From NCBI GenBank assembly GCA_013289705.1, contig JABCZM010000004.1, forward strand, positions 1 through 64,000: 64,000 nt of DNA. The letters run 5' to 3'. The DNA is from Candidatus Saccharimonadota bacterium (lineage in GTDB: Bacteria; Patescibacteriota; Saccharimonadia; Saccharimonadales; UBA4665). The translations under genes were made by a program, and so were the position numbers. Each line of letters starts with the position of its first letter. Within the stretch, counting starts at the first letter, position 1. Positions 13,480-37,511 of the stretch are shown piece by piece. The notes below the pieces were generated by a model. That model ran no database searches, had not been told where the DNA came from, and worked only from the letters and a program-made list of their open reading frames with translations.

Positions 13480-14805
13480 CTAAAACGTAAACTGCTTTGG
13501 ATAAACTATTGTCTGAGGATCGGTATATTGTATGAGCGTTTCCGAGAAACCCTCTTTTCCAAGACCTGCCTTACCGAAACCACCGAAAGACATTTGCGCG
13601 TGCCGAAAAGTCGGCAGATCATTGAATATGATACCTCCCCAAAGTAAATCTTTAGCCAAACTACGCATAGACGCTTGTTTTGCCACATAAATAGATAGTT
13701 GAATACCGCTGTTTATGTAATCACGTTTGATAGTACCTAGTACCTCTTGATATCCTAATTGACCATCGTACAAATGCACGAATACAATTGGGCCTGGCAG
13801 GTCAAAGCAAAGTATTTGTTTGACCCAATCACTATGGAAGCCGGAGACGGCATACATAGCTGGAGAGATATGGGCACCGTCTACTTTAAGCTCTAGCAAT
13901 GTTTCAACATGTGGTGCAAATTCTAGAATCTTTTTCACTTTGTCAGCAGAGCTACGTGCATAGTCTGCAGTGATTAATGGGCCAAGGCGACCAGTACTTT
14001 TGACTAGCTGGAGCTTCGACCGCAATTCGGTCACAAAGTTGATTCTCTCGGCTGGGATAAAAATATGTTTAATGGATACGCAACGCTGACCATTTTTGGC
14101 AACAATGCCTTCAACCAAGCGTTCCGCAAGTTGGTCATCATACTGTTTGAAGTCCGGGGCAAAGATCACTGGTGAATTACCACCAGTCAATTCCATATGG
14201 TACTTCTTGACCCCACCGCTCTTGATAATTTTCTGACCGGTGATGTAGCTACCGGTGAACGAAATAATGCCGATACGATCGTCTGACGTCACTTGGTTGA
14301 GAGTCTGTTCATCCTCCTGATCCGTGAAGTATACCAATCTGTTGCCACAGGCTTTGTGAATGAGATCATAAAGAGCCCTGCCGCTTTGCGCAGCTAGCGG
14401 AGACGGCTTAAACAGCACCGAGGTACTGGCGAGTAAGCCCGTTGAGATCTTGTGAGCTGGAGAGCTTAACGGACTGCTAAACGGTGTAATAGCCAGCAGT
14501 GGTCCGCGCGCCAATCGTCTTTCTCGTATGATTTTGTCGCCCTTTTCGGCGAGGGTATCTGTTAGCGCATCAGCATGGGTCTTAGCCATAAGAAAGGTAG
14601 CTATTGCTCGGTCTATTTCTTTGGTGGTATCTTGCTCAGTGAGCTTAACTTCGCTGACAATTAATTGACGCAAACCGTCGCGATTGTTCTCTATCTCCCG
14701 AGCAATGTCACTGAATATTTGTCGTTTACTCATAGAATCTAAGTCCGCAGCCACAAAATAGTCCGACTGGAGCTTTGTTAGTGTTGCTTCAAGCTCTGTA
14801 ACCAT
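13480..14805 (-). CDS. Aldehyde dehydrogenase, possibly acting on phosphonoacetaldehyde
   Basis: 441 residues, slightly short for the family. The catalytic pair is Glu205 in HMELTGGNSP and Cys242 in GQRCVS, the cofactor Lys is in VLFKPSP near 133, and FTGSYITGQ is the NAD-binding turn. The ATG is directly next to the stop of the phosphonopyruvate decarboxylase gene, whose product is phosphonoacetaldehyde. From that context I infer oxidation to phosphonoacetate, as done by PhnY-type enzymes; sequence alone gives only the family. Confidence 0.8.
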   Translation of the reverse strand: MVTELEATLTKLQSDYFVAADLDSMSKRQIFSDIAREIENNRDGLRQLIVSEVKLTEQDTTKEIDRAIATFLMAKTHADALTDTLAEKGDKIIRERRLARGPLLAITPFSSPLSSPAHKISTGLLASTSVLFKPSPLAAQSGRALYDLIHKACGNRLVYFTDQEDEQTLNQVTSDDRIGIISFTGSYITGQKIIKSGGVKKYHMELTGGNSPVIFAPDFKQYDDQLAERLVEGIVAKNGQRCVSIKHIFIPAERINFVTELRSKLQLVKSTGRLGPLITADYARSSADKVKKILEFAPHVETLLELKVDGAHISPAMYAVSGFHSDWVKQILCFDLPGPIVFVHLYDGQLGYQEVLGTIKRDYINSGIQLSIYVAKQASMRSLAKDLLWGGIIFNDLPTFRHAQMSFGGFGKAGLGKEGFSETLIQYTDPQTIVYPKQFTF

Positions 14806-15921
14806 CTAAGCACTTCCTAAGAAACTCATGAACTCGGCCTTATTCTCGACCGGAGTTGTGGTTGGCCGGCCAAGATCTGGTCGTGAGCCCGTGGACGCAT
14901 ATACAACCACCGCTCGTGGTCCATCGTTTGTATCAAAATCCAGAGCAATTAACTCAGCTTTGGTGTGGATGATGGTCACGCTACGATAGTTGGCGCTAGT
15001 GAATATCCCTTGCCATTTTAGGACTGTTGAGACAGTGGGCTGACCACCAGTGCTCTCGTAAGCACCGTTGTCGATAACTATGTGGGTCAAATTGCGTAAT
15101 TGGTAATAACCAATAGTCGCCAGCGTGCCCATTTTCATAAGCACCGCTCCATCACCGTCTATGACGAAAACCTTCTTGCTCGTTTGCATAGCTATACCTA
15201 AACCAATACTCGCAGCACAACCCATCGAGCCAACAGTTAAAAAATCGAAGTGATGAGACTGACCGGCCTGTTCTCTAAGCTCATAAACTTCGCGTGAGGT
15301 TTTGCCAGTCGTTGTAACTATCGGTGACTCACCAATTTTTGGCAACAACAGGCTCAAGATTTCTTCTCGTTGCATATATTCAGCCTGGACTGACTGGGCA
15401 GGACTACCCCTGGAGTTTATAATCTTTGGTCGAAAGATCAAGGCGACCGGCTTTTGATGAGAGGTCGCAGCAGCTTTCAGCGAGGTGATCGTTTCGGCTG
15501 TTTCAGTGACATCGGCGCTTGCGAATTGGTACGGTATTCCCATATCGCGCAATAGGTCAAGCATGATACGACCCATCTTCTTGTGCTGTGGTTCATCGCT
15601 CTGACCTGGTTCACCCCTCCATGATAAGAAGATTATGGCCGGGATACTGTACACCTCTTTATCCATCAATGAAGTTAGCGGATTTACGGCGTTACCCAAA
15701 CCAGAGTTTTGCATATAGATGATCGGGACTTTGCCAGTGGATAAGTGATAACCAGTAGCAATCCCGACTGCTTCGCCCTCGCTAGTAGCAATGACGTTTT
15801 GTATAGGCCCAGGCTCCGTACTAAAGCAACTCAGTAACCCTTCTAAATAGCTACATGGTACCCCTGTTAGGAACAAGAGATCTTGAGCTTTTAGTACAGT
15901 TATCAGGTCGACAGCCTTCAT
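14806..15921 (-). CDS. aepY: Phosphonopyruvate decarboxylase
   Basis: 371 residues, the normal size. It is a thiamine-diphosphate enzyme with split N- and C-terminal domains: TGVPCSYLEGLL near 19-30, the catalytic Glu in ATSEGEAVGIATGY, and the ThDP/Mg motif DGDGAVLMKMGTLATIGY ending in DNGAYESTGGQPT. These match Ppd/AepY, which converts phosphonopyruvate to phosphonoacetaldehyde and CO2, the irreversible step that drives C-P bond synthesis. It starts six bases after the PEP mutase stop and abuts the dehydrogenase gene. Confidence 0.92.
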   Translation of the reverse strand: MKAVDLITVLKAQDLLFLTGVPCSYLEGLLSCFSTEPGPIQNVIATSEGEAVGIATGYHLSTGKVPIIYMQNSGLGNAVNPLTSLMDKEVYSIPAIIFLSWRGEPGQSDEPQHKKMGRIMLDLLRDMGIPYQFASADVTETAETITSLKAAATSHQKPVALIFRPKIINSRGSPAQSVQAEYMQREEILSLLLPKIGESPIVTTTGKTSREVYELREQAGQSHHFDFLTVGSMGCAASIGLGIAMQTSKKVFVIDGDGAVLMKMGTLATIGYYQLRNLTHIVIDNGAYESTGGQPTVSTVLKWQGIFTSANYRSVTIIHTKAELIALDFDTNDGPRAVVVYASTGSRPDLGRPTTTPVENKAEFMSFLGSA

Positions 15922-15927
15922 TATGTA

Positions 15928-16869
15928 TTAAACCTTATCTGCCTGGTTTAGCGGTATTAGTTCGAGTAGCTCAGGCATTGGCATACACTGCTCATCCGTC
16001 TCGAGAGAGCGACCATTTTGTAATATTTCCTCGGCAACTAACTTCATTACTGGATAAGCGCTACGCAGTAAATGATTGGCATATATCACAACCTTCACGC
16101 CAGCATTAATAAGTTCGGCTTCAGTCACTGAATTATACGTTGTAGGCACCACTACCAATGGCAACTTCAACCCTAGTTCATGGTATCGCATACAGAAGAT
16201 CATAATCTCATCAGCGGTTTTGTGCTTACTGTGAATCATGATGGCATCGGCACCAGCCTGAGCGTAAGCCTGAGCTCGCGCCAAGGCATCATCCATACCC
16301 ATGTTACAAACTAAACTCTCAATGCGGGCAATGATCATAAAATCAGGACTGATTTGGCTGGCTTTACCAACACGAATCTTATGAGAAAAGTTCTCGATAG
16401 AATCTTGTTGCTGGTATATTTTGTCACTGTGCAGAGAATTTCGTTTCTTGCCTATTTTATCTTCTACAATAACCGCCGAAACACCTATGCGCTCCAGTCT
16501 CCTTACCGTAAATGCAAAAATCTCAGCCAGCCCCCCATTATCGGCATCAATAATTATAGGCTTAGTTGTCACGGCCATGATCTCCTGTACAGTATGTAAG
16601 CGAGAAGTCATGTCGATAACGGCAATGTCGGGCATCCCTTTTGATATTGCATCAGTGAGACTACCTTCCCACACACCGTCGAATTCAAGTTCTTGGTCAT
16701 CTTTACGTATCCGAGCGTTCTCCACTATCAAGGCAGTCAAGCCGTTGTGAGCCTCTAGTATCCGAACAATATCCTTGCTCTCCATTAATTGTCGTAGGTG
16801 TCCGATCCTTAGACTTCCTAAGCTATCCATTTTTTGTATAGTATTACGCATATAGTATCTTTCTGGCAA
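15928..16869 (-). CDS. aepX: Phosphoenolpyruvate phosphomutase
   Basis: 313 residues, isocitrate-lyase-superfamily barrel. The PEP mutase signature E-D-K-x-x-x-K-x-N-S is present as EDKIGKKRNSL at 136-146, with the metal-site strand IIIDADNGG at 105-113 and the RIESL element. It forms the C-P bond by turning PEP into phosphonopyruvate, the entry step of nearly all phosphonate synthesis. Its start overlaps the preceding P-loop gene by 26 bases; ATGs at 16851 or 16827 are also possible starts. Confidence 0.92.
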   Translation of the reverse strand: MPERYYMRNTIQKMDSLGSLRIGHLRQLMESKDIVRILEAHNGLTALIVENARIRKDDQELEFDGVWEGSLTDAISKGMPDIAVIDMTSRLHTVQEIMAVTTKPIIIDADNGGLAEIFAFTVRRLERIGVSAVIVEDKIGKKRNSLHSDKIYQQQDSIENFSHKIRVGKASQISPDFMIIARIESLVCNMGMDDALARAQAYAQAGADAIMIHSKHKTADEIMIFCMRYHELGLKLPLVVVPTTYNSVTEAELINAGVKVVIYANHLLRSAYPVMKLVAEEILQNGRSLETDEQCMPMPELLELIPLNQADKV

Positions 16870-17953
16870 CAGTATCTAGCTCTGTCACCGATAGTGAGTT
16901 AAAAATAGTTAGACCAGGCAACTCATACATTACCCGTTCGCGCGTGGTAATCGGATTTCTTCCTTTAGGTTCAGTTAGATAAATTGCAGCTTCTGGTGCA
17001 TATTTTCGAATATAAGAAACGGCACCCATCATGCCCATAACATCACCAGCAACTATCACTATTGCTTTGACGCCATGCATGAGGGCTGCGCTAGCCAGAA
17101 AAGTTGGTACGTTTGCTTCTATCAGATCACCGCCAGCTTCCGCAACAATAATATCAGGCTTGGAAGCATTCAGACGATTTAATAAGGTATACGTCCCCGC
17201 CATAAATCGATCAGGTGACGTATAAGTTGTAGCGAGACCAATCTCTGGGAAATCCATAGCCTCATGAGCCCCTGCATCACGTAACTTGTCAATGTCGCGT
17301 CTTCGACCCGTGCCAGTCAGTTTGGTGGCCGCTACGGATAGACCGCATCGAGACAGAGCCCCTATCAGCCCAGCTGCGCTAGTAGTTTTGCCAACTTCAG
17401 CACTTGTACCACAGACTAAGATGACCGGAGCAGTAGCGTTAAGCTCTGCGTCATGAGCACCATAAGCATCAAAAATATCAACCACACCATTACTGTCCGT
17501 GACTAGACCAACTGCTTTTAATGACATCGGCTTATGACCACCAGCTGGCATACCCGATGATATACCGACAACCCCTCCAGCCGATAATAAATGCAGCTCG
17601 ATTCCATCATCTATTCTAATGCCTGTCTCTGGCACATCTCCAGACTCAGAAGTCCCAGAGTGACGGCTAGCTAGTACACCGATGAAATGATCACCTTTTT
17701 TTAGTAAGCGGTCGATACCCTGCCGGTCCTCGACTTCCATTCTAAAAGCGGTATCGCTTGCTACTTCGACAAGGACAAGATTACCTTCATGGCCCAGTCC
17801 CTGCTGCACGCTACAGGTGTCCCGGAAGAGGTTATACGAGCGGATATTCGAAGCAATGCATTTGACTAGACTACCGCCGGCCGTGCCGATAGTACCTGAG
17901 AGTTTGTGATTTTCAGGAAAGTAAAAAAGAGCTTCTGCTAACGATGCCTTCAT
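16844..17953 (-). CDS. P-loop ATPase of DUF1611/dethiobiotin-synthase-like type
   Basis: 369 residues. A Walker A motif CGTSAEVGKTT lies at 181-191, followed by switch-like residues in TKLTGTGRRRDID and a Walker-B-like strand PDIIVAEAGGDL. The N-terminal 165 residues form a separate domain with GGVVGISSGMPAGGHKPMS. The layout resembles DUF1611 (DgcN-like) and DTBS-type ATPases, some of which activate carboxylates. It overlaps the PEP mutase gene and is therefore probably part of the phosphonate pathway. A role in activating a phosphonate or amino-acid carboxylate is a guess. Confidence 0.6.
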   Translation of the reverse strand: MKASLAEALFYFPENHKLSGTIGTAGGSLVKCIASNIRSYNLFRDTCSVQQGLGHEGNLVLVEVASDTAFRMEVEDRQGIDRLLKKGDHFIGVLASRHSGTSESGDVPETGIRIDDGIELHLLSAGGVVGISSGMPAGGHKPMSLKAVGLVTDSNGVVDIFDAYGAHDAELNATAPVILVCGTSAEVGKTTSAAGLIGALSRCGLSVAATKLTGTGRRRDIDKLRDAGAHEAMDFPEIGLATTYTSPDRFMAGTYTLLNRLNASKPDIIVAEAGGDLIEANVPTFLASAALMHGVKAIVIVAGDVMGMMGAVSYIRKYAPEAAIYLTEPKGRNPITTRERVMYELPGLTIFNSLSVTELDTVARKILYA

Positions 17954-18016
17954 AGCTATCCTTTGTGACGAATCGTTAATTGTATCACTAAGAATTTAAT
18001 TTTTACTGCACTGCTG

Positions 18017-18982
18017 CTACTCGATGTATCCAAGTACCCATTCAATAATAGCCATACGTACACGCAAACCATAATGTACCTGATCAAAGTAGATTGCCCT
18101 CGGATCATTATCTATAGCTGGATCGATTTCACCAACACGTGGTAGTGGGTGCATCAGCCTAGCATCCTTACGCATCAGAGCGATTTCTTTAGCTCCGATT
18201 ACATATTTCTTGTCAGCACCAGGGTTAGCTTTGAGGAATTTCGCTTGTTCGTCCGTCAAACGCTCAGTCTGAACACGAGTCCAGTAGACTATATCTGCTT
18301 CTTTAAATGCAGTTTCTAGCTCGCTGGTCTCTGTGTACTTCAGGCCTTTCTCGTCGAGCATTTGCTTGATATCATCACCCATTTCGAACGTTGGTGGAGA
18401 AATAAAGGTAAAGCTATTGCCAGGATACTTTGCCAGTAACTTCGTAAAACTTCGTGCCGTACGACCGTTTGATAGGTCACCACCCATGACTACCTTTAGA
18501 TTACTGGTACGACCAAGCTCTTCGCGTGCCGTATACAAATCATACAGCCCCTGCGTCGGATGTTCACCACTGCCGTCACCACCATTAACAATTGGGACTG
18601 AGGCAAACTCGGCAGCTCTTGCAGCGTCGCCAGCTTTGGCAGAGCGCAACACTATAAGGCTCGGTAAATATGCTGAGATGACACGAATAGTGTCTTCAAG
18701 TGTTTCACCCTTGGCTACTGAAGAAAATTGCACACTCTGGCTACCCTGCACACCCATGCCAAGATGCTCCGCGGCAAAGCCAAATGATTCGTAGGTTCGG
18801 GTCGACTCCTTGTAGAAGAGACGATGTAATATGTGACCCTGCAAGGGACCACCAGGACGATGAAAACGATTCTTATCATCAAAATTCTTTGCTGCGGCGT
18901 CGGCATAGGTAAACATTCGTTCAATCAGCTCGGTATCTAGCTGGTCAACACTCAATAAGTGACGCAAATTTTTGCTTGCCAT
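18017..18982 (-). CDS. pyrB: Aspartate carbamoyltransferase catalytic chain
   Basis: 321 residues. The carbamoyl-phosphate loop STRT is at 60-63, with Lys91 in AKGE, Arg113, GDGSGEHPTQ with His141 and Gln144, Arg174 in NGRTARS, Arg236 and Gln238 in TRVQTER, and HPLPRVGEI at 278-286. All catalytic ligands known from E. coli PyrB are kept; the usual RHP after Arg113 reads RSA. AGGAGG precedes the ATG. It makes carbamoyl-aspartate for pyrimidines. No pyrI or other pyr gene is in the window, and it lies 63 bases upstream of the phosphonate genes on the same strand. Confidence 0.93.
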   Translation of the reverse strand: MASKNLRHLLSVDQLDTELIERMFTYADAAAKNFDDKNRFHRPGGPLQGHILHRLFYKESTRTYESFGFAAEHLGMGVQGSQSVQFSSVAKGETLEDTIRVISAYLPSLIVLRSAKAGDAARAAEFASVPIVNGGDGSGEHPTQGLYDLYTAREELGRTSNLKVVMGGDLSNGRTARSFTKLLAKYPGNSFTFISPPTFEMGDDIKQMLDEKGLKYTETSELETAFKEADIVYWTRVQTERLTDEQAKFLKANPGADKKYVIGAKEIALMRKDARLMHPLPRVGEIDPAIDNDPRAIYFDQVHYGLRVRMAIIEWVLGYIE

Positions 18983-22048: not shown

Positions 22049-22141
22049 GTTAGCCGATGCTTACACCGAAGCCGTGTAGCGTTCGTTCAAATCAATTTTC
22101 AAAAGACCTGAAAACGCTTATGCGCTATACTAGTGCTTAAG

Positions 22142-23698
22142 ATGAGGCGGCAACGCAAAAGCGAAGGTGGGTTTACACTCGTGGAGCTGATGGTGAGCAT
22201 GGTATTGCTTGCCACCGTTGCCTTGAGCATGCTTGCGTTGTTTATATCACTCGTAACCAGCGCTGTTGTTGCCAAGCACGAAGCAGTCGCGACCACGTTG
22301 GCCACAAACCAGATTGAATACCTCAAGTCGCTTCCATACGATAGTCTGGCAGTTGCAGGTGGCCAAATTTATTCGACAACCTATCTGCCGGCCACCGCAA
22401 CCAAAACTTTGAACGGCACAACATACACCGTCACCACGGCAATTAATTATGTGGACGACGCGTACGATGGTTGCGCCAGTGGTATTAACACGTTTCCGCT
22501 TGCTCAGCGGCCAACCTATTGCCGGAATTATCCACCCCCAACCAACGTGCCAGATACCAGCCCATACGACTACAAGATTTTGGACGTCACGGTTACTAGC
22601 CGCGGTGGTGCGCATTTGGCTGAGCTTAGCACACAAGTGTCGGCCCGCGTGGCCGAAAGCGGTAGCACCAAAGGTGCACTGTTTGCCAAAGTGATAGAGA
22701 CAACAGGCAGCCCTGTTGCGGGTGCTCATGTGACGCTTGTTGATGCCAACCTTGGCGTGAGTTTGGGCGGGGACAGTGACGAAAATGGTGTCGTGCCCTT
22801 CTATGATCTGCCGCCAGATACCACTGGCTATCACTATGTCATGACTGCCTCACTGGCTGGCTATTCGACGCTCAAAACCATTGCTCCATCCGGCGCACTT
22901 CAGCCAACCTATTCCAGTCAGAATATCGTCGCACAACAGTCTTCATTTGCTACCTTGACCATCAAGCCACAAGGCGCAAACAGCCTGCTCGTGGAAGCTA
23001 CCGATCCAAACGGTACAGCACTCAGCGGCGCAAAAATCTACATCAAGGGCGGCTACAAGAACTACACTGCCACCACCGACACGACTTACTATTATGACAA
23101 CATGCAGTCCGGTGATTCGCGGCCAGTAACTGATGCAAGTGGCTTGGTTGGCATTTCTAGCCTTGTATCGGGCAGTACCAGCCTAGTGCCTGGCAACTAC
23201 ATCTTTTGTGGAGACACAGGCGCAACAAGCTGCGTCAATGGCAGCGGGTCTGCTTTGTACGTGGCTGCAGCCATACCATATAGTGGCACCACCGTGTTCA
23301 ATCCTATTACCGTACCCATAGAACCAAATACTCCGGCAAACACTACTTACACCTATAACAGCCTGAATTACATACAAAAGGTGCGGCTCATCCTGACAAC
23401 TTCATCGACATTTCCACGCATCAATACCATTACCCCCTACGATGTGAGTCTGGCGAGCGGTGCAACAAACTTTGCGTTCACTGTTAACGGCACGAACCTG
23501 AGCGGTGGCACTGTCAAATTCCTGCAAGGCGCCAGTACTTTTATTGCCACCTGCAGCGGCTCGAGTTCCCAGCTAAGCTGTACCGTGGACATATCTGCAG
23601 CAACTGCCGGCAATACCCAGATGGTCTTGACCGCAGGTGGCAATACGCTTACCATTCCGTCGAGTTTGATGCTAGGAGGACTCATTGTTACGCCATAA
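22142..23698 (+). CDS. Large type IV pilus minor-pilin-like protein
   Basis: 518 residues from ATG 22142, ten bases after TATACT (22126-22131); GTG 22133 lies too close to the -10 box. A class III signal EGGFTLVELMVSM with cleavage before Phe is followed by one hydrophobic helix. After residue about 175 come two carboxypeptidase-regulatory-like beta domains (GSPVAGAHVTLVDA and GTALSGAKIYIKGG), and the last 95 residues look like an IPT/TIG domain. It would be processed by PilD and displayed at the surface; the beta domains suggest an adhesive tip subunit. Confidence 0.8.
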   Translation: MRRQRKSEGGFTLVELMVSMVLLATVALSMLALFISLVTSAVVAKHEAVATTLATNQIEYLKSLPYDSLAVAGGQIYSTTYLPATATKTLNGTTYTVTTAINYVDDAYDGCASGINTFPLAQRPTYCRNYPPPTNVPDTSPYDYKILDVTVTSRGGAHLAELSTQVSARVAESGSTKGALFAKVIETTGSPVAGAHVTLVDANLGVSLGGDSDENGVVPFYDLPPDTTGYHYVMTASLAGYSTLKTIAPSGALQPTYSSQNIVAQQSSFATLTIKPQGANSLLVEATDPNGTALSGAKIYIKGGYKNYTATTDTTYYYDNMQSGDSRPVTDASGLVGISSLVSGSTSLVPGNYIFCGDTGATSCVNGSGSALYVAAAIPYSGTTVFNPITVPIEPNTPANTTYTYNSLNYIQKVRLILTTSSTFPRINTITPYDVSLASGATNFAFTVNGTNLSGGTVKFLQGASTFIATCSGSSSQLSCTVDISAATAGNTQMVLTAGGNTLTIPSSLMLGGLIVTP

Positions 23699-24281
23699 GC
23701 TCACAAGCCAGCAAGGCTTTACGATCGTTGAGCTCACGATGGTCATTATCGTTATTGGTATTGTTGTGCCGATGTTTTATCTGTTTTTTAACAACTCGTT
23801 GTCGCAATATTTGACGCTTCAGAAAGACGGCAGCGATTTTACCGATCTTGCCTACCAATCACAACGCATCGGCAACGTGCTGCGTGGCGCCACTGATATT
23901 GTCAGCGTCAGTGCCGATGACATCAGCTGCTATGCCTACTTTTCACCCAACGACACCTACGTATCACTCATTCACTACTACAAAACCGCCGGCAACACAC
24001 AGATGCTAGCAGACGTAACACCCATGACAGCCAATCCACCTATTGGTTCACTCATCACCGCCAAGAAGCAAACATTTAAAATCATCAACAACTTCTACCA
24101 GTCACCAAGCTTAAGTACTTTTGTATACTTGGATGAGACCGGAGCGCCATTGACTCTGCCAATTGCCGACGAACATACCATAAAAGGCGTTCAGGTAAAC
24201 CTGGCCGCAAAAGGTGGAGACAACAGCAATCAGGCCATAACACTCCAAGTTAGTTTACGAAACAGGAAGACAAATTTATGA
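23685..24281 (+). CDS. Type IV pilin-like protein
   Basis: 198 residues starting at TTG 23685, five bases after AGGAGGA; it overlaps the previous gene by 14 bases. The prepilin motif is QQGFTIVELTMVIIVIGIVV with a Glu at the fifth mature position, followed by a globular domain of about 150 residues. This is the usual size of a PilW/PulJ-type minor pilin. It is translationally coupled to the neighbouring pilus genes. Confidence 0.82.
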   Translation: MLRHKLTSQQGFTIVELTMVIIVIGIVVPMFYLFFNNSLSQYLTLQKDGSDFTDLAYQSQRIGNVLRGATDIVSVSADDISCYAYFSPNDTYVSLIHYYKTAGNTQMLADVTPMTANPPIGSLITAKKQTFKIINNFYQSPSLSTFVYLDETGAPLTLPIADEHTIKGVQVNLAAKGGDNSNQAITLQVSLRNRKTNL

Positions 24282-25945
24282 TACGCCCGCGACCACTTCG
24301 ACTCGATGAAAAAGGCTTTTTAATGCCAGCAATCTTGTCGTTTATCATCGCCATGGGAATATTATCGGGTGCGGTGCTTGAGGTAATTTTGACCAATTTT
24401 AATACCGTCGGCAACAATCTTGATAGTCAAAAAGCCTTCAATATAGCCGAAGCGGGTGTCAATTATTATTTGTGGCATTTGAGTCATAATGGTGCCGACT
24501 TTAAAGACGGCCAGAGCACCCCTGCTACGCCTGATCCAACCTTGGGCTACGGGCCATACGTCCATACCTACATCAACGCCGACGGGGCTACCGAAGGTAC
24601 CTATACGCTTTGGATTAATCCGCAAGGCAACGGTTCAACCGTGGCTACCGTTCGATCGATTGGCCAAGCAAAAGGTAGTAACATCACCCGTACCGTTAGT
24701 GCACAGCTAGGGGCACCGTCATTTGCAAGCTACGGTGTGGTGTCTGATTCAGCATTGTGGTTTGGCAATAACGAATCGTCCGATGGTCCAGTGCATTCTA
24801 ACCAGGGAATTCGTATGGACGGATCGTCAGATGCCGAAGTTAGTAGCGCAAACGTGTCCTATACGCCAACCAATGCCATAGGTGGCTGCGCCAACAGCAA
24901 TTGCTCGCACGACGGGGTTTGGTGCGATCCAAGTGTAACGGCACCCGTCAACTGCAACTCGCGGAACAAGCTCGACTGGAAGTTTAATCCCCCGGCAGCT
25001 ACCGTCGACTTTAATGCCGTGTCGAGCAGTCTTTGCACGATGAAAAAAGTTGCCTTTGGTGATGACTCCCACACATCGGCGTTGGTGGGCGGTCCAAATC
25101 CTTGCTCGCAAACACCCACGACACGGACCGCCGCCTACATTCCTCAGTATTCCAGCAGCGGCTCGTTTAGTGTCAGCAAAGGCTACCTTATTAAGCTCAA
25201 CAGTAATGGCACATACGACTTATCGCTGGTAAACAGCGAAGACGACCGGCTCACACCCTACACCAGTGCGCTCGGCACAAGCACAATCAGCACTAGCCCC
25301 TATGTTGGCAAAACCGGGATACCAATACCACCGTCTGGCGTCATTTTTGCCGAGGACAACGTGTGGGTATTAAGTGCGCCAAACTTCCATGGCAGAGTTA
25401 CTATTGCATCTGGACGATTAGCCAATAGCAATAGCACCAACATCGTCATCGCCGGCCCGCTAAAATATTCAACCAAAAACGGTAGTGATGCGATTGGCCT
25501 AGTTGCCGAAGATTCGGTGTACATTGCACCTTATGCACCCACGACATTTCCATACGAAATCGACGGCGCACTGTTGGCAGAAAACGGCAACGTTCAGTTC
25601 GGGGAAAATGGTACTAACAATAATCCTGCCAGTTATCGGCGAAATTCTAGCTCATGTGGCCCTGGCTGGATAAACAGTAACCAAAACTTCATCTTCTATG
25701 GCTCAGCCGCCATGCGCCAAACCTGGACCTGGAGCTGGCTGGTTGGTAGGCAAGGACAAAGCTGCGGTAACGCCGTATACGATCCAACCTACAGTAACGC
25801 AGGTGCAACCGGCTGGTACATAACAGGCTTTGAGTACAGTACGACACAGTACGACTACAACCTGCAGTATGCACCGCCACCAAGCTATCCTGTGACGAGC
25901 GGCTACAACGTGTTGTCGTGGCGTGAAGTACTCACAAAACCCTAA
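24278..25945 (+). CDS. PilX-like pilus assembly protein
   Basis: 555 residues. The N-terminus KGFLMPAILSFIIAMGILSG is a non-canonical prepilin-type helix, followed by AFNIAEAGVNYYLWHLSH, the signature of PilX/PulK-like proteins. The large remainder has repeated beta-rich stretches and about ten cysteines, so disulfides outside the cell are likely. The ATG overlaps the preceding stop by four bases. The three genes form one operon for a type IV pilus-like or secretion pseudopilus tip. Confidence 0.8.
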   Translation: MIRPRPLRLDEKGFLMPAILSFIIAMGILSGAVLEVILTNFNTVGNNLDSQKAFNIAEAGVNYYLWHLSHNGADFKDGQSTPATPDPTLGYGPYVHTYINADGATEGTYTLWINPQGNGSTVATVRSIGQAKGSNITRTVSAQLGAPSFASYGVVSDSALWFGNNESSDGPVHSNQGIRMDGSSDAEVSSANVSYTPTNAIGGCANSNCSHDGVWCDPSVTAPVNCNSRNKLDWKFNPPAATVDFNAVSSSLCTMKKVAFGDDSHTSALVGGPNPCSQTPTTRTAAYIPQYSSSGSFSVSKGYLIKLNSNGTYDLSLVNSEDDRLTPYTSALGTSTISTSPYVGKTGIPIPPSGVIFAEDNVWVLSAPNFHGRVTIASGRLANSNSTNIVIAGPLKYSTKNGSDAIGLVAEDSVYIAPYAPTTFPYEIDGALLAENGNVQFGENGTNNNPASYRRNSSSCGPGWINSNQNFIFYGSAAMRQTWTWSWLVGRQGQSCGNAVYDPTYSNAGATGWYITGFEYSTTQYDYNLQYAPPPSYPVTSGYNVLSWREVLTKP

Positions 25946-25946
25946 A

Positions 25947-26417
25947 TTAACGACTTTTATAGAGGCAAAATGAGTAGCGGACACCCTTTTCAATACGTGA
26001 TTCGCTTTTACTGACCAACCTATACGCGTCTTTGTAAGATGGGTAAAACTGATCGCAATCAAAGTCACCTTCAAGCTCCGTCACATACAATTCGTCGGCA
26101 AGCGGCAATGTTTCCGCAAATAATTCAGCGCCGCCAATGATCCACACGTCTGTTTTACTAGCCAGAAAAGCCTGTAAATCGTGAATAACCGTTACGCCAG
26201 GTATGGCAAGATCCTGATGTGAAAGTACAAAGTTCTCGCGACCAGGCAACGGGCGCCGAACGTCCTCGAAAAAAGTTTTGCGACCCATTAGTACTACGCC
26301 ACCATGAGATAGCGTTTGCTGGTTGAAGTATCGTTTATCGGCTGCTGGAGTCCACTCATACTTGCCGTTTTTGGCAATGCCGCGCTTGGCATCCAAGACG
26401 ACAATATGGCGAATCAT
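25947..26417 (-). CDS. folA: Dihydrofolate reductase
   Basis: 156 residues. Family positions: IVVLDAKRGIAKNG at the start, the NADPH loop VVLMGRKTFFED, PLPGRENFVLS, and IIGGAELFAETL, with a closing YSFCLYKSR. The usual catalytic acid region GIAKNGKYEW has Glu before Trp where many enzymes have L-P-W. It reduces dihydrofolate to tetrahydrofolate. Its ATG overlaps the folC stop by four bases. The gene ends one base from the convergent pilus operon. Confidence 0.9.
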   Translation of the reverse strand: MIRHIVVLDAKRGIAKNGKYEWTPAADKRYFNQQTLSHGGVVLMGRKTFFEDVRRPLPGRENFVLSHQDLAIPGVTVIHDLQAFLASKTDVWIIGGAELFAETLPLADELYVTELEGDFDCDQFYPSYKDAYRLVSKSESRIEKGVRYSFCLYKSR

Positions 26418-36451: not shown

Positions 36452-36910
36452 CTAATTTTGACTGATTAATCTTGCCTGCTGCAACACAGCGTCGAGGTGC
36501 TCACTACCAAGTTCAGCCCTAGAAACAGCCTGAGCTTCGTCGTTGCAGGTTAGCACACCAAAGCCAATCGGCATTGATTGATCCAACTGGACACGTAAAA
36601 TGCCGTTGTTTACAAAATTGCAGACGTAATCGAAGTGCGGTGTATCGCCTTTAATGACACAACCAACCGCTAGCAATGCGTTATACCTGCCAGACTTTGC
36701 CAGATGCTGTAAAACCAAGGGAATTTCAATTGCGCCGGCTACGGGAAAAATATCGATTTGGTCACTTGCTATCTTATAGTCAGCAGCCCGCTTGACGGCA
36801 CTTGCTTGCAGCTGCGAAGTAATGTGCTGGTTAAACTGGGCTACGACCAGTCCGATGCGCCAACCACCGGCGTCAAATGGTTCAAATTCAGCCTTTTGTG
36901 CTTTTTGCAT
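36452..36910 (-). CDS. ribH: 6,7-dimethyl-8-ribityllumazine synthase
   Basis: 152 residues from ATG 36910, chosen because AGAGG lies six bases before it, while the alternative ATG 36916 has no spacing. Motifs: GLVVAQFNQHIT, FPVAGAIEIPLVL, VGCVIKGDTPHFDYVCN (catalytic His) and PIGFGVLTCND. It condenses the ribityl-uracil with dihydroxybutanone phosphate. It overlaps the 3' end of ribE. Confidence 0.93.
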   Translation of the reverse strand: MQKAQKAEFEPFDAGGWRIGLVVAQFNQHITSQLQASAVKRAADYKIASDQIDIFPVAGAIEIPLVLQHLAKSGRYNALLAVGCVIKGDTPHFDYVCNFVNNGILRVQLDQSMPIGFGVLTCNDEAQAVSRAELGSEHLDAVLQQARLISQN

Positions 36911-37511
36911 GTTCATCCTCTTTAACTTTTTGGGCTTTCATTATGTTCACAACATACTTTCCAATAGTGTCGAATTCTAGATTTACCTTATCGCCAACAC
37001 GTAACATGTTAAGCGTTGTATGCTCTAAGGTATGTGGAATAATTGCCACACCCAGTACGTTATCGCTCAGTTCTGCCACTGTCAGCGACACACCATTAAT
37101 CGTGATCGAGCCTTTAGGAATCACCAGCTCCTTGTTCACTTCGGGAAATGCAACAGACACTCGCCAGCCGTCCGCTGTATCGATCTTTTCTACCGTGCCC
37201 GTGCCGTCAACATGCCCCTGGACAAAATGGCCGCCAAACCGATCACTGACGCTTAATGAGCGTTCTAGATTAACGCTTTCTGGAAGATCCGCTCCAAAAG
37301 AAGTCTTGTGGAGTGTTTCGGGCATCAGCAAGCATTCATAAGAATCTTCGTGAATTGCCGAAACCGTTAGACACACGCCATTGGTGGCGATTGATTCACC
37401 CAACACCAGATCGTCCCAGCCCTTTGGCCTTTTAAACGTCATGGTTAAGCCGTCTGCGCCCGACTTCGAGCCCAGCACAGCCGTCGTATGCGTAATAATC
37501 CCCGTAAACAT
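36888..37511 (-). CDS. ribE: Riboflavin synthase alpha chain
   Basis: 207 residues in two tandem lumazine-binding barrels: MFTGIITHTTAVL with ATNGVCLTV in the first, and GGHFVQGHVDGTGTV with ITINGVSLTV in the second. It dismutates two lumazines to riboflavin. Promoter: TTGCAA, 17 bases, GATACT, then eight bases to the ATG, so there is little room for an FMN riboswitch and none is seen. Confidence 0.94.
   Translation of the reverse strand: MFTGIITHTTAVLGSKSGADGLTMTFKRPKGWDDLVLGESIATNGVCLTVSAIHEDSYECLLMPETLHKTSFGADLPESVNLERSLSVSDRFGGHFVQGHVDGTGTVEKIDTADGWRVSVAFPEVNKELVIPKGSITINGVSLTVAELSDNVLGVAIIPHTLEHTTLNMLRVGDKVNLEFDTIGKYVVNIMKAQKVKEDEHAKSTKG

Follow-up and report, generated by a model that had tools for sequence, protein, structure and literature searches.

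We analyzed a 64,000-nucleotide stretch of DNA (the window) from a Candidatus Saccharimonadota bacterium (assembly GCA_013289705.1, contig JABCZM010000004.1, positions 1 to 64,000) and found that it contains a compact operon with genes for phosphonate biosynthesis. An earlier note, made from the letters alone, had described a tight five-gene operon on one strand, headed by pyrB 63 bp upstream of the next gene. All five open reading frames and their spacing were reproduced at the coordinates given there, on the (-) strand from 18982 to 13480. They encode a second aspartate carbamoyltransferase (ATCase, pyrB; 321 aa; 18017..18982; TIGR00670), a two-domain P-loop protein of the SIMIBI type (16844..17953; weak CbiA/BioD/DUF1611 matches and fold matches), the phosphoenolpyruvate (PEP) mutase PepM (15928..16851; TIGR02320 and an EDKxxxKxNS motif), a single-chain phosphonopyruvate decarboxylase, Ppd (14806..15921; TIGR03297), and an aldehyde dehydrogenase (ALDH; 13480..14805; PF00171). 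The spacing is 63 bp between pyrB and the P-loop gene, 6 bp between pepM and ppd, and 0 bp between ppd and the ALDH gene. The stop codon of the P-loop gene overlaps the start of pepM (ATGCGTAA, ATG at 16851); we favor this ATG, and the listed in-frame TTG at 16869 is a less likely start. A strong ribosome-binding site (gaggaggag) lies upstream of pyrB, and the base composition of the operon is similar to that of the flanking DNA. Promoter and terminator scans of the operon gave scores no better than those of shuffled sequences.

The steps from PEP to phosphonoacetaldehyde are well supported, as the earlier note had proposed. PepM scored 378 bits with TIGR02320 (curated cut-off 319.6), its translation contains EDKIGKKRNS, which matches the EDKxxxxxNS motif, and its best solved relative is a PEP phosphomutase (5unc). 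Grouping with other lyases, which would have undermined the mutase identity, was not seen. Phosphonopyruvate hydrolase and other lyases gave far lower scores and were ruled out. Ppd scored 417 bits with TIGR03297 (cut-off 312.5) and at most 108 bits with sulfopyruvate decarboxylase models. Both enzymes are well clear of these thresholds.

The ALDH could be assigned at the level of the superfamily (PF00171, 158 bits), with no specific NCBIfam model reaching its cut-off. Models for lactaldehyde, sulfoacetaldehyde and phosphonoacetaldehyde dehydrogenases were among the closest curated ones, each far under its threshold; the score with the PhnY-type phosphonoacetaldehyde dehydrogenase model, TIGR03250, was 107 bits vs 635.7. 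Cys242 and Glu205 are conserved with the ALDHs of the related clusters described below. Across the clusters, two divergent types of ALDH seem to serve the oxidation of the aldehyde. From the gene context, the best reading of the putative function is oxidation of phosphonoacetaldehyde to phosphonoacetate. The phosphonoacetate-type product suggested in the earlier note is likewise the best reading of the dehydrogenase.

We found that the ATCase in the operon is a duplicate. It scored 279 bits with TIGR00670 (cut-off 237) and contains STRT, HPTQ, HPLP, R229 and Q231. The housekeeping ATCase of the same genome is elsewhere, next to carB, carA and pyrC on contig C1 (L003 3293-9920; car and pyrC named from sequence), so that one copy of the enzyme is inside the cluster and one outside. 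Because a canonical ATCase already sits with carA, carB and pyrC, we regard the pyrB in the operon as a duplicated target. The earlier note was right to place pyrB at the head of the operon. Comparative evidence indicates that it is not an incidental leading gene; it is a duplicated and altered second ATCase.

The cluster is not a chance arrangement. Its genes recur together in four other genomes of the Candidate Phyla Radiation (CPR), in the same phylum as the window genome, and, with substitutions, on a plasmid of Priestia megaterium. A search with the P-loop protein identified genome G277, with a divergent M20 hydrolase gene followed by genes for PepM, PpdA, PpdB, ALDH, the P-loop protein, ATCase and a small haloacid dehalogenase (HAD) protein. 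A scan of GTDB genomes identified the same gene order in a Peregrinibacteria genome (L015, genome G288), and a cluster with M20, P-loop, PepM, Ppd and ALDH genes in the order of the window, without pyrB (L014). A PepM search identified a full gene set in genome G379. M20 hydrolases accompany four CPR clusters and are 40-70% identical to one another. As relatives of the ArgE/DapE deacylases, they may hydrolyze the amide of the product as a second safeguard. No M20 homologue was found in the window genome with a query that had no positive control. The distribution is patchy (3/74 genomes of family f68, in three genera, with G761 in this count taken as G288 from contig number and coordinates; 1/393 in the window genome's class), as is typical of specialized biosynthetic clusters.

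Among plasmids, the closest match to the P-loop protein (34% identity) was on P. megaterium KF18 unnamed4. The cluster there (L024 10487-20493, NZ_CP085446.1) encodes an ornithine carbamoyltransferase (OTCase), an ATP-grasp ligase, PpdA, PpdB, the P-loop protein, another ATP-grasp ligase, an M20 hydrolase, a luciferase-type monooxygenase and a PepM-family protein. The two ATP-grasp proteins are amino acid ligases. The cluster also contains a major facilitator superfamily (MFS) transporter and has IS6 elements on both sides. The PepM-family protein scored 318.3 bits (cut-off 319.55), and the carbamoyltransferase is OTCase-like and slightly below curated cut-offs. Oxidation of the aldehyde is perhaps carried out by the monooxygenase. 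Between the CPR clusters and this one, the carbamoyltransferase thus differs in its amino acid side (ATCase or OTCase), and the phosphonate core and the P-loop protein are nonetheless retained.

A second ATCase is rare outside these clusters. ATCase was present in all 14 well-known control genomes, and most sampled relatives of the window genome (G000) have none: it was above cut-off in 13/60, with two copies in G000 and one in each of the other 12. In a sample of the phylum, 51/240 genomes had ATCase above cut-off, and two copies were found in 2/51 (G000 and G150). The ATCases of G150 are not near relatives of PepM, Ppd, ALDH or the P-loop protein; both are canonical (L078 1647-2588 and L079 8104-9093), with no phosphonate genes nearby. 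Four genomes with a cluster (G000, G277, G288 and G379) each have an ATCase in the cluster and another elsewhere. Within family f68, one ATCase is present in each of the eight sampled ATCase-bearing genomes that lack the cluster (genus mates G106 and G135 among them), and two in each of the three that have it. The association between cluster and second ATCase was significant by Fisher tests (p = 1.6e-5 over ATCase-bearing genomes; p = 0.006 within f68), which ignore relatedness and compare genomes that came from different searches.

Recruitment of the carbamoyltransferases is convergent. Supported branches of the tree force three changes, and the enzymes in the clusters have at least three independent origins (ATCase twice, OTCase once). 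A single clade for the four CPR in-cluster ATCases was rejected by the approximately unbiased (AU) test (p = 3.5e-5), as was a pairing of the in-cluster pyrB with the genome's own pyrB as a recent paralogue (p = 5e-4). The in-cluster ATCases of the Peregrinibacteria family group with one copy from G150, their nearest relative.

The in-cluster ATCases retain S52, T53, R54, S80, K84, R105, H134, Q137, R167, R229 and Q231. They vary at E50/P51/T55/R56 or in the HPLPR loop, which are near-constant positions in other ATCases. The altered loops are located at the site for carbamoyl phosphate. The window enzyme has E50K, P51E and R56Y (KESTRTY vs E(P/A)STRTR elsewhere) and a longer 240s loop; those of the Peregrinibacteria family have STRSR and an insertion after HPLP. 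Low-scoring canonical ATCases (L051 and L052) likewise depart from the loop consensus. N-phosphonoacetyl-L-aspartate (PALA) is a synthetic bisubstrate-analogue inhibitor that binds the active site of ATCase. In ATCase structures, the phosphate or phosphonate group of PALA is bound by the E(P/A)STRTR loop. The changes in this loop are suggestive of a cluster ATCase with reduced sensitivity to the product. The role of SxRT is stated in PMC4581275.

The P-loop protein is common to all six clusters. The window protein had weak matches only (CbiA/BioD/DUF1611), and its score with PF07755 (DUF1611/DgcN) was 21.7 vs a gathering score of 25 bits. A sequence profile searched against the PDB gave matches confined to the P-loop segment and the stretch flanking it, with none to the N-acetyltransferase DgcN (7xrj). 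A search of a phage collection gave one partial, unannotated match. In a structural model of moderate confidence (predicted local distance difference test, pLDDT, 74.7), an N-terminal domain made mostly of strands precedes a SIMIBI-like P-loop C-terminal domain. The fold matches included signal recognition particle (SRP) GTPases at the top, dethiobiotin synthetase, HypB and DgcN. One homologue in a locus without PepM (L011 427-5211, genome G227) lies between argG and a gene for N-acetylornithine carbamoyltransferase, followed by argH; it may supply the amino acid N-acylation for which that arginine pathway otherwise lacks an enzyme. Because of the DgcN fold match and the homologue in an arginine operon that needs amino acid N-acylation, we link the family to N-acylation. 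The protein is a probable amide-forming N-acyl amino acid ligase or transferase. Where the earlier note had an unspecified P-loop ATPase, the protein is indeed there, and comparative evidence makes it central to the cluster.

From these results we propose a pathway. PepM, a strong family member, would convert PEP to phosphonopyruvate, and Ppd, assigned with similar strength, would convert that to phosphonoacetaldehyde; synthesis of a phosphonate to this point is very probable. Oxidation to phosphonoacetate by the ALDH is the weaker assignment of the three, and we predict with good confidence that the operon achieves it. The conversions accord with the known enzymology of PepM and Ppd and with the phosphonoacetate branch in PMC12723261. 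The P-loop protein would then use ATP (or acyl-CoA) to link phosphonoacetate through an amide to an amino acid, L-aspartate being the most likely one. The product would be PALA or a close derivative. The in-cluster ATCase would be a working but altered copy that sustains pyrimidine synthesis in the producer, judging from its duplication, co-occurrence and residues, and it is probably a protected (self-resistant) target. By the same logic, the Priestia cluster would make an ornithine-based analogue, with OTCase in the place of ATCase. We favor this reading as a whole (PALA or a near derivative of it, its ornithine analogue in Priestia, and the extra carbamoyltransferase as self-resistant target) as reasonably likely; that the product is exactly PALA is somewhat favored.

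Several observations weigh against this proposal. The reaction of the P-loop protein was assigned from remote similarity, and the SRP GTPases that lead its fold matches, from a model of moderate confidence, reflect the P-loop fold and nothing more. The ALDH has Ser for the usual oxyanion Asn (PFSSP). The PepM homologues of the three Peregrinibacteria-family clusters (L010 6502-7404, L015 5501-6508 and L060 8196-9176) have EDN...KC(A/S) vs EDK...NS, and both that were scored missed the PepM cut-off. Of the four cluster genomes with two ATCases, three belong to a single family, so the counts are partly dependent on one another. Beside the window operon there is neither an exporter gene nor one for a peptide ligase. 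Finally, pyrB is missing from the L014 cluster, whose genome encodes an OTCase and a single, split ATCase of the housekeeping kind, so that immunity by way of ATCase is not shared by all the clusters.

The L014 cluster would fit a product derived from phosphonoacetate or phosphonoacetaldehyde and unrelated to ATCase, with pyrB as a pyrimidine gene of convenience. PepM, Ppd and ALDH suffice for phosphonoacetate, and a PepM-Ppd-Adh route to it is known in actinomycetes (PMC12723261). We consider this explanation unlikely, since the genome already has a pyrB in its pyrimidine locus, second ATCases are rare elsewhere, and ATCase (twice) and OTCase (once) were recruited independently beside the same P-loop/PepM core. 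It is still less likely that the carbamoyltransferase homologue is itself biosynthetic, transferring either carbamoyl or phosphonoacetyl, the latter from phosphonoacetyl phosphate that the P-loop protein would make, to the amino acid of the product. Its catalytic residues are intact, its gene is inside the operon, and both ATCase and OTCase bind amino acids. However, L014 does without the enzyme, the pocket for the phosphate of carbamoyl phosphate is retained along with a score above the ATCase-family cut-off, and at least three origins suit copies of a target better than a dedicated enzyme.

Other CPR PepM genes sit in clusters for cell-surface phosphonates, that is, 2-aminoethylphosphonate (AEP) or hydroxyethylphosphonate on a glycan or lipid, the usual role of PepM in these bacteria. 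PepM is uncommon in the phylum (6/380 genomes above cut-off). The strongest other matches are longer, fused proteins beside Ppd and genes for a dehydrogenase, aminotransferase or nucleotidyltransferase, and these loci probably represent a different pathway, to glycan phosphonates. Six CPR loci (L062, L063, L066, L067, L068 and L069) encode PepM with N- or C-terminal extensions beside Ppd and, in most cases, dehydrogenase, aminotransferase or nucleotidyltransferase-like genes. Unlike those clusters, the window operon has no gene for an aminotransferase, alcohol dehydrogenase, cytidylyltransferase fusion, nucleotidyltransferase or glycosyltransferase. A cell-surface product would also leave the second ATCase unexplained, and we consider it very improbable. 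The glycan-type (AEP/cytidylyl) pathway was rejected for this operon, the matching genes being absent though common in the other CPR PepM loci.

Elsewhere in the window, three consecutive proteins (22133-25945) have prepilin-like N-termini (e.g., GFTLVELMVSM) and are probably minor pilins of a type IV pilus. An apparent dihydrofolate reductase (25947-26417) and a riboflavin-synthase-type protein with a lumazine binding domain (36888-37511) are also encoded. Together with the carA-carB-pyrC-pyrB locus, these represent a richer biosynthetic set than that of most sampled relatives, which are without ATCase.

On balance we lean, with some reserve, toward PALA and its ornithine counterpart as natural products of CPR bacteria and a Bacillota plasmid. 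The clusters that make them would form a family with a P-loop N-acyl amino acid synthase at its core, to which resistant carbamoyltransferases were added independently. If so, a classical ATCase inhibitor gains a natural origin, pyrimidine synthesis turns out to be the target of an antimetabolite from ultra-small, probably host-dependent bacteria, and a P-loop family gains a function. A rule for genome mining would be to look for a phosphonate core with a spare carbamoyltransferase. A literature search, with subscription journals mostly outside its coverage, gave no description of natural PALA and none of a carbamoyltransferase encoded in a phosphonate cluster.

The proposed system resembles several known ones. 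The flavophos cluster of Burkholderia is also a PepM-based phosphonate cluster with a duplicated, resistant copy of the target enzyme (PMC12871164). It differs in that the route proceeds via phosphonomethylmalate-derived 3-OBPn and the target is lumazine synthase; no carbamoyltransferase is mentioned in the text searched. The actinomycete phosphonoacetate clusters (O-phosphonoacetic acid serine; Kitasatospora fiedleri) share PepM, Ppd and an aldehyde dehydrogenase leading to phosphonoacetate, but their text mentions no carbamoyltransferase (PMC12723261). The P-loop protein resembles DgcN/DUF1611 (7xrj) in predicted fold over 234 columns, with a P-loop C-terminal domain, but its DUF1611 match is under the curated cut-off and 7xrj was matched by fold and not by sequence. 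ArgK, the phaseolotoxin-resistant OTCase, is likewise an extra, inhibitor-resistant carbamoyltransferase that shields the maker of a carbamoyltransferase inhibitor; here the enzyme is an OTCase and the inhibitor a sulfodiaminophosphinyl peptide, not a PepM-type phosphonate (PMC4530439). Flavophos had already provided a case of target duplication within a phosphonate cluster, and ArgK one of a resistant carbamoyltransferase.

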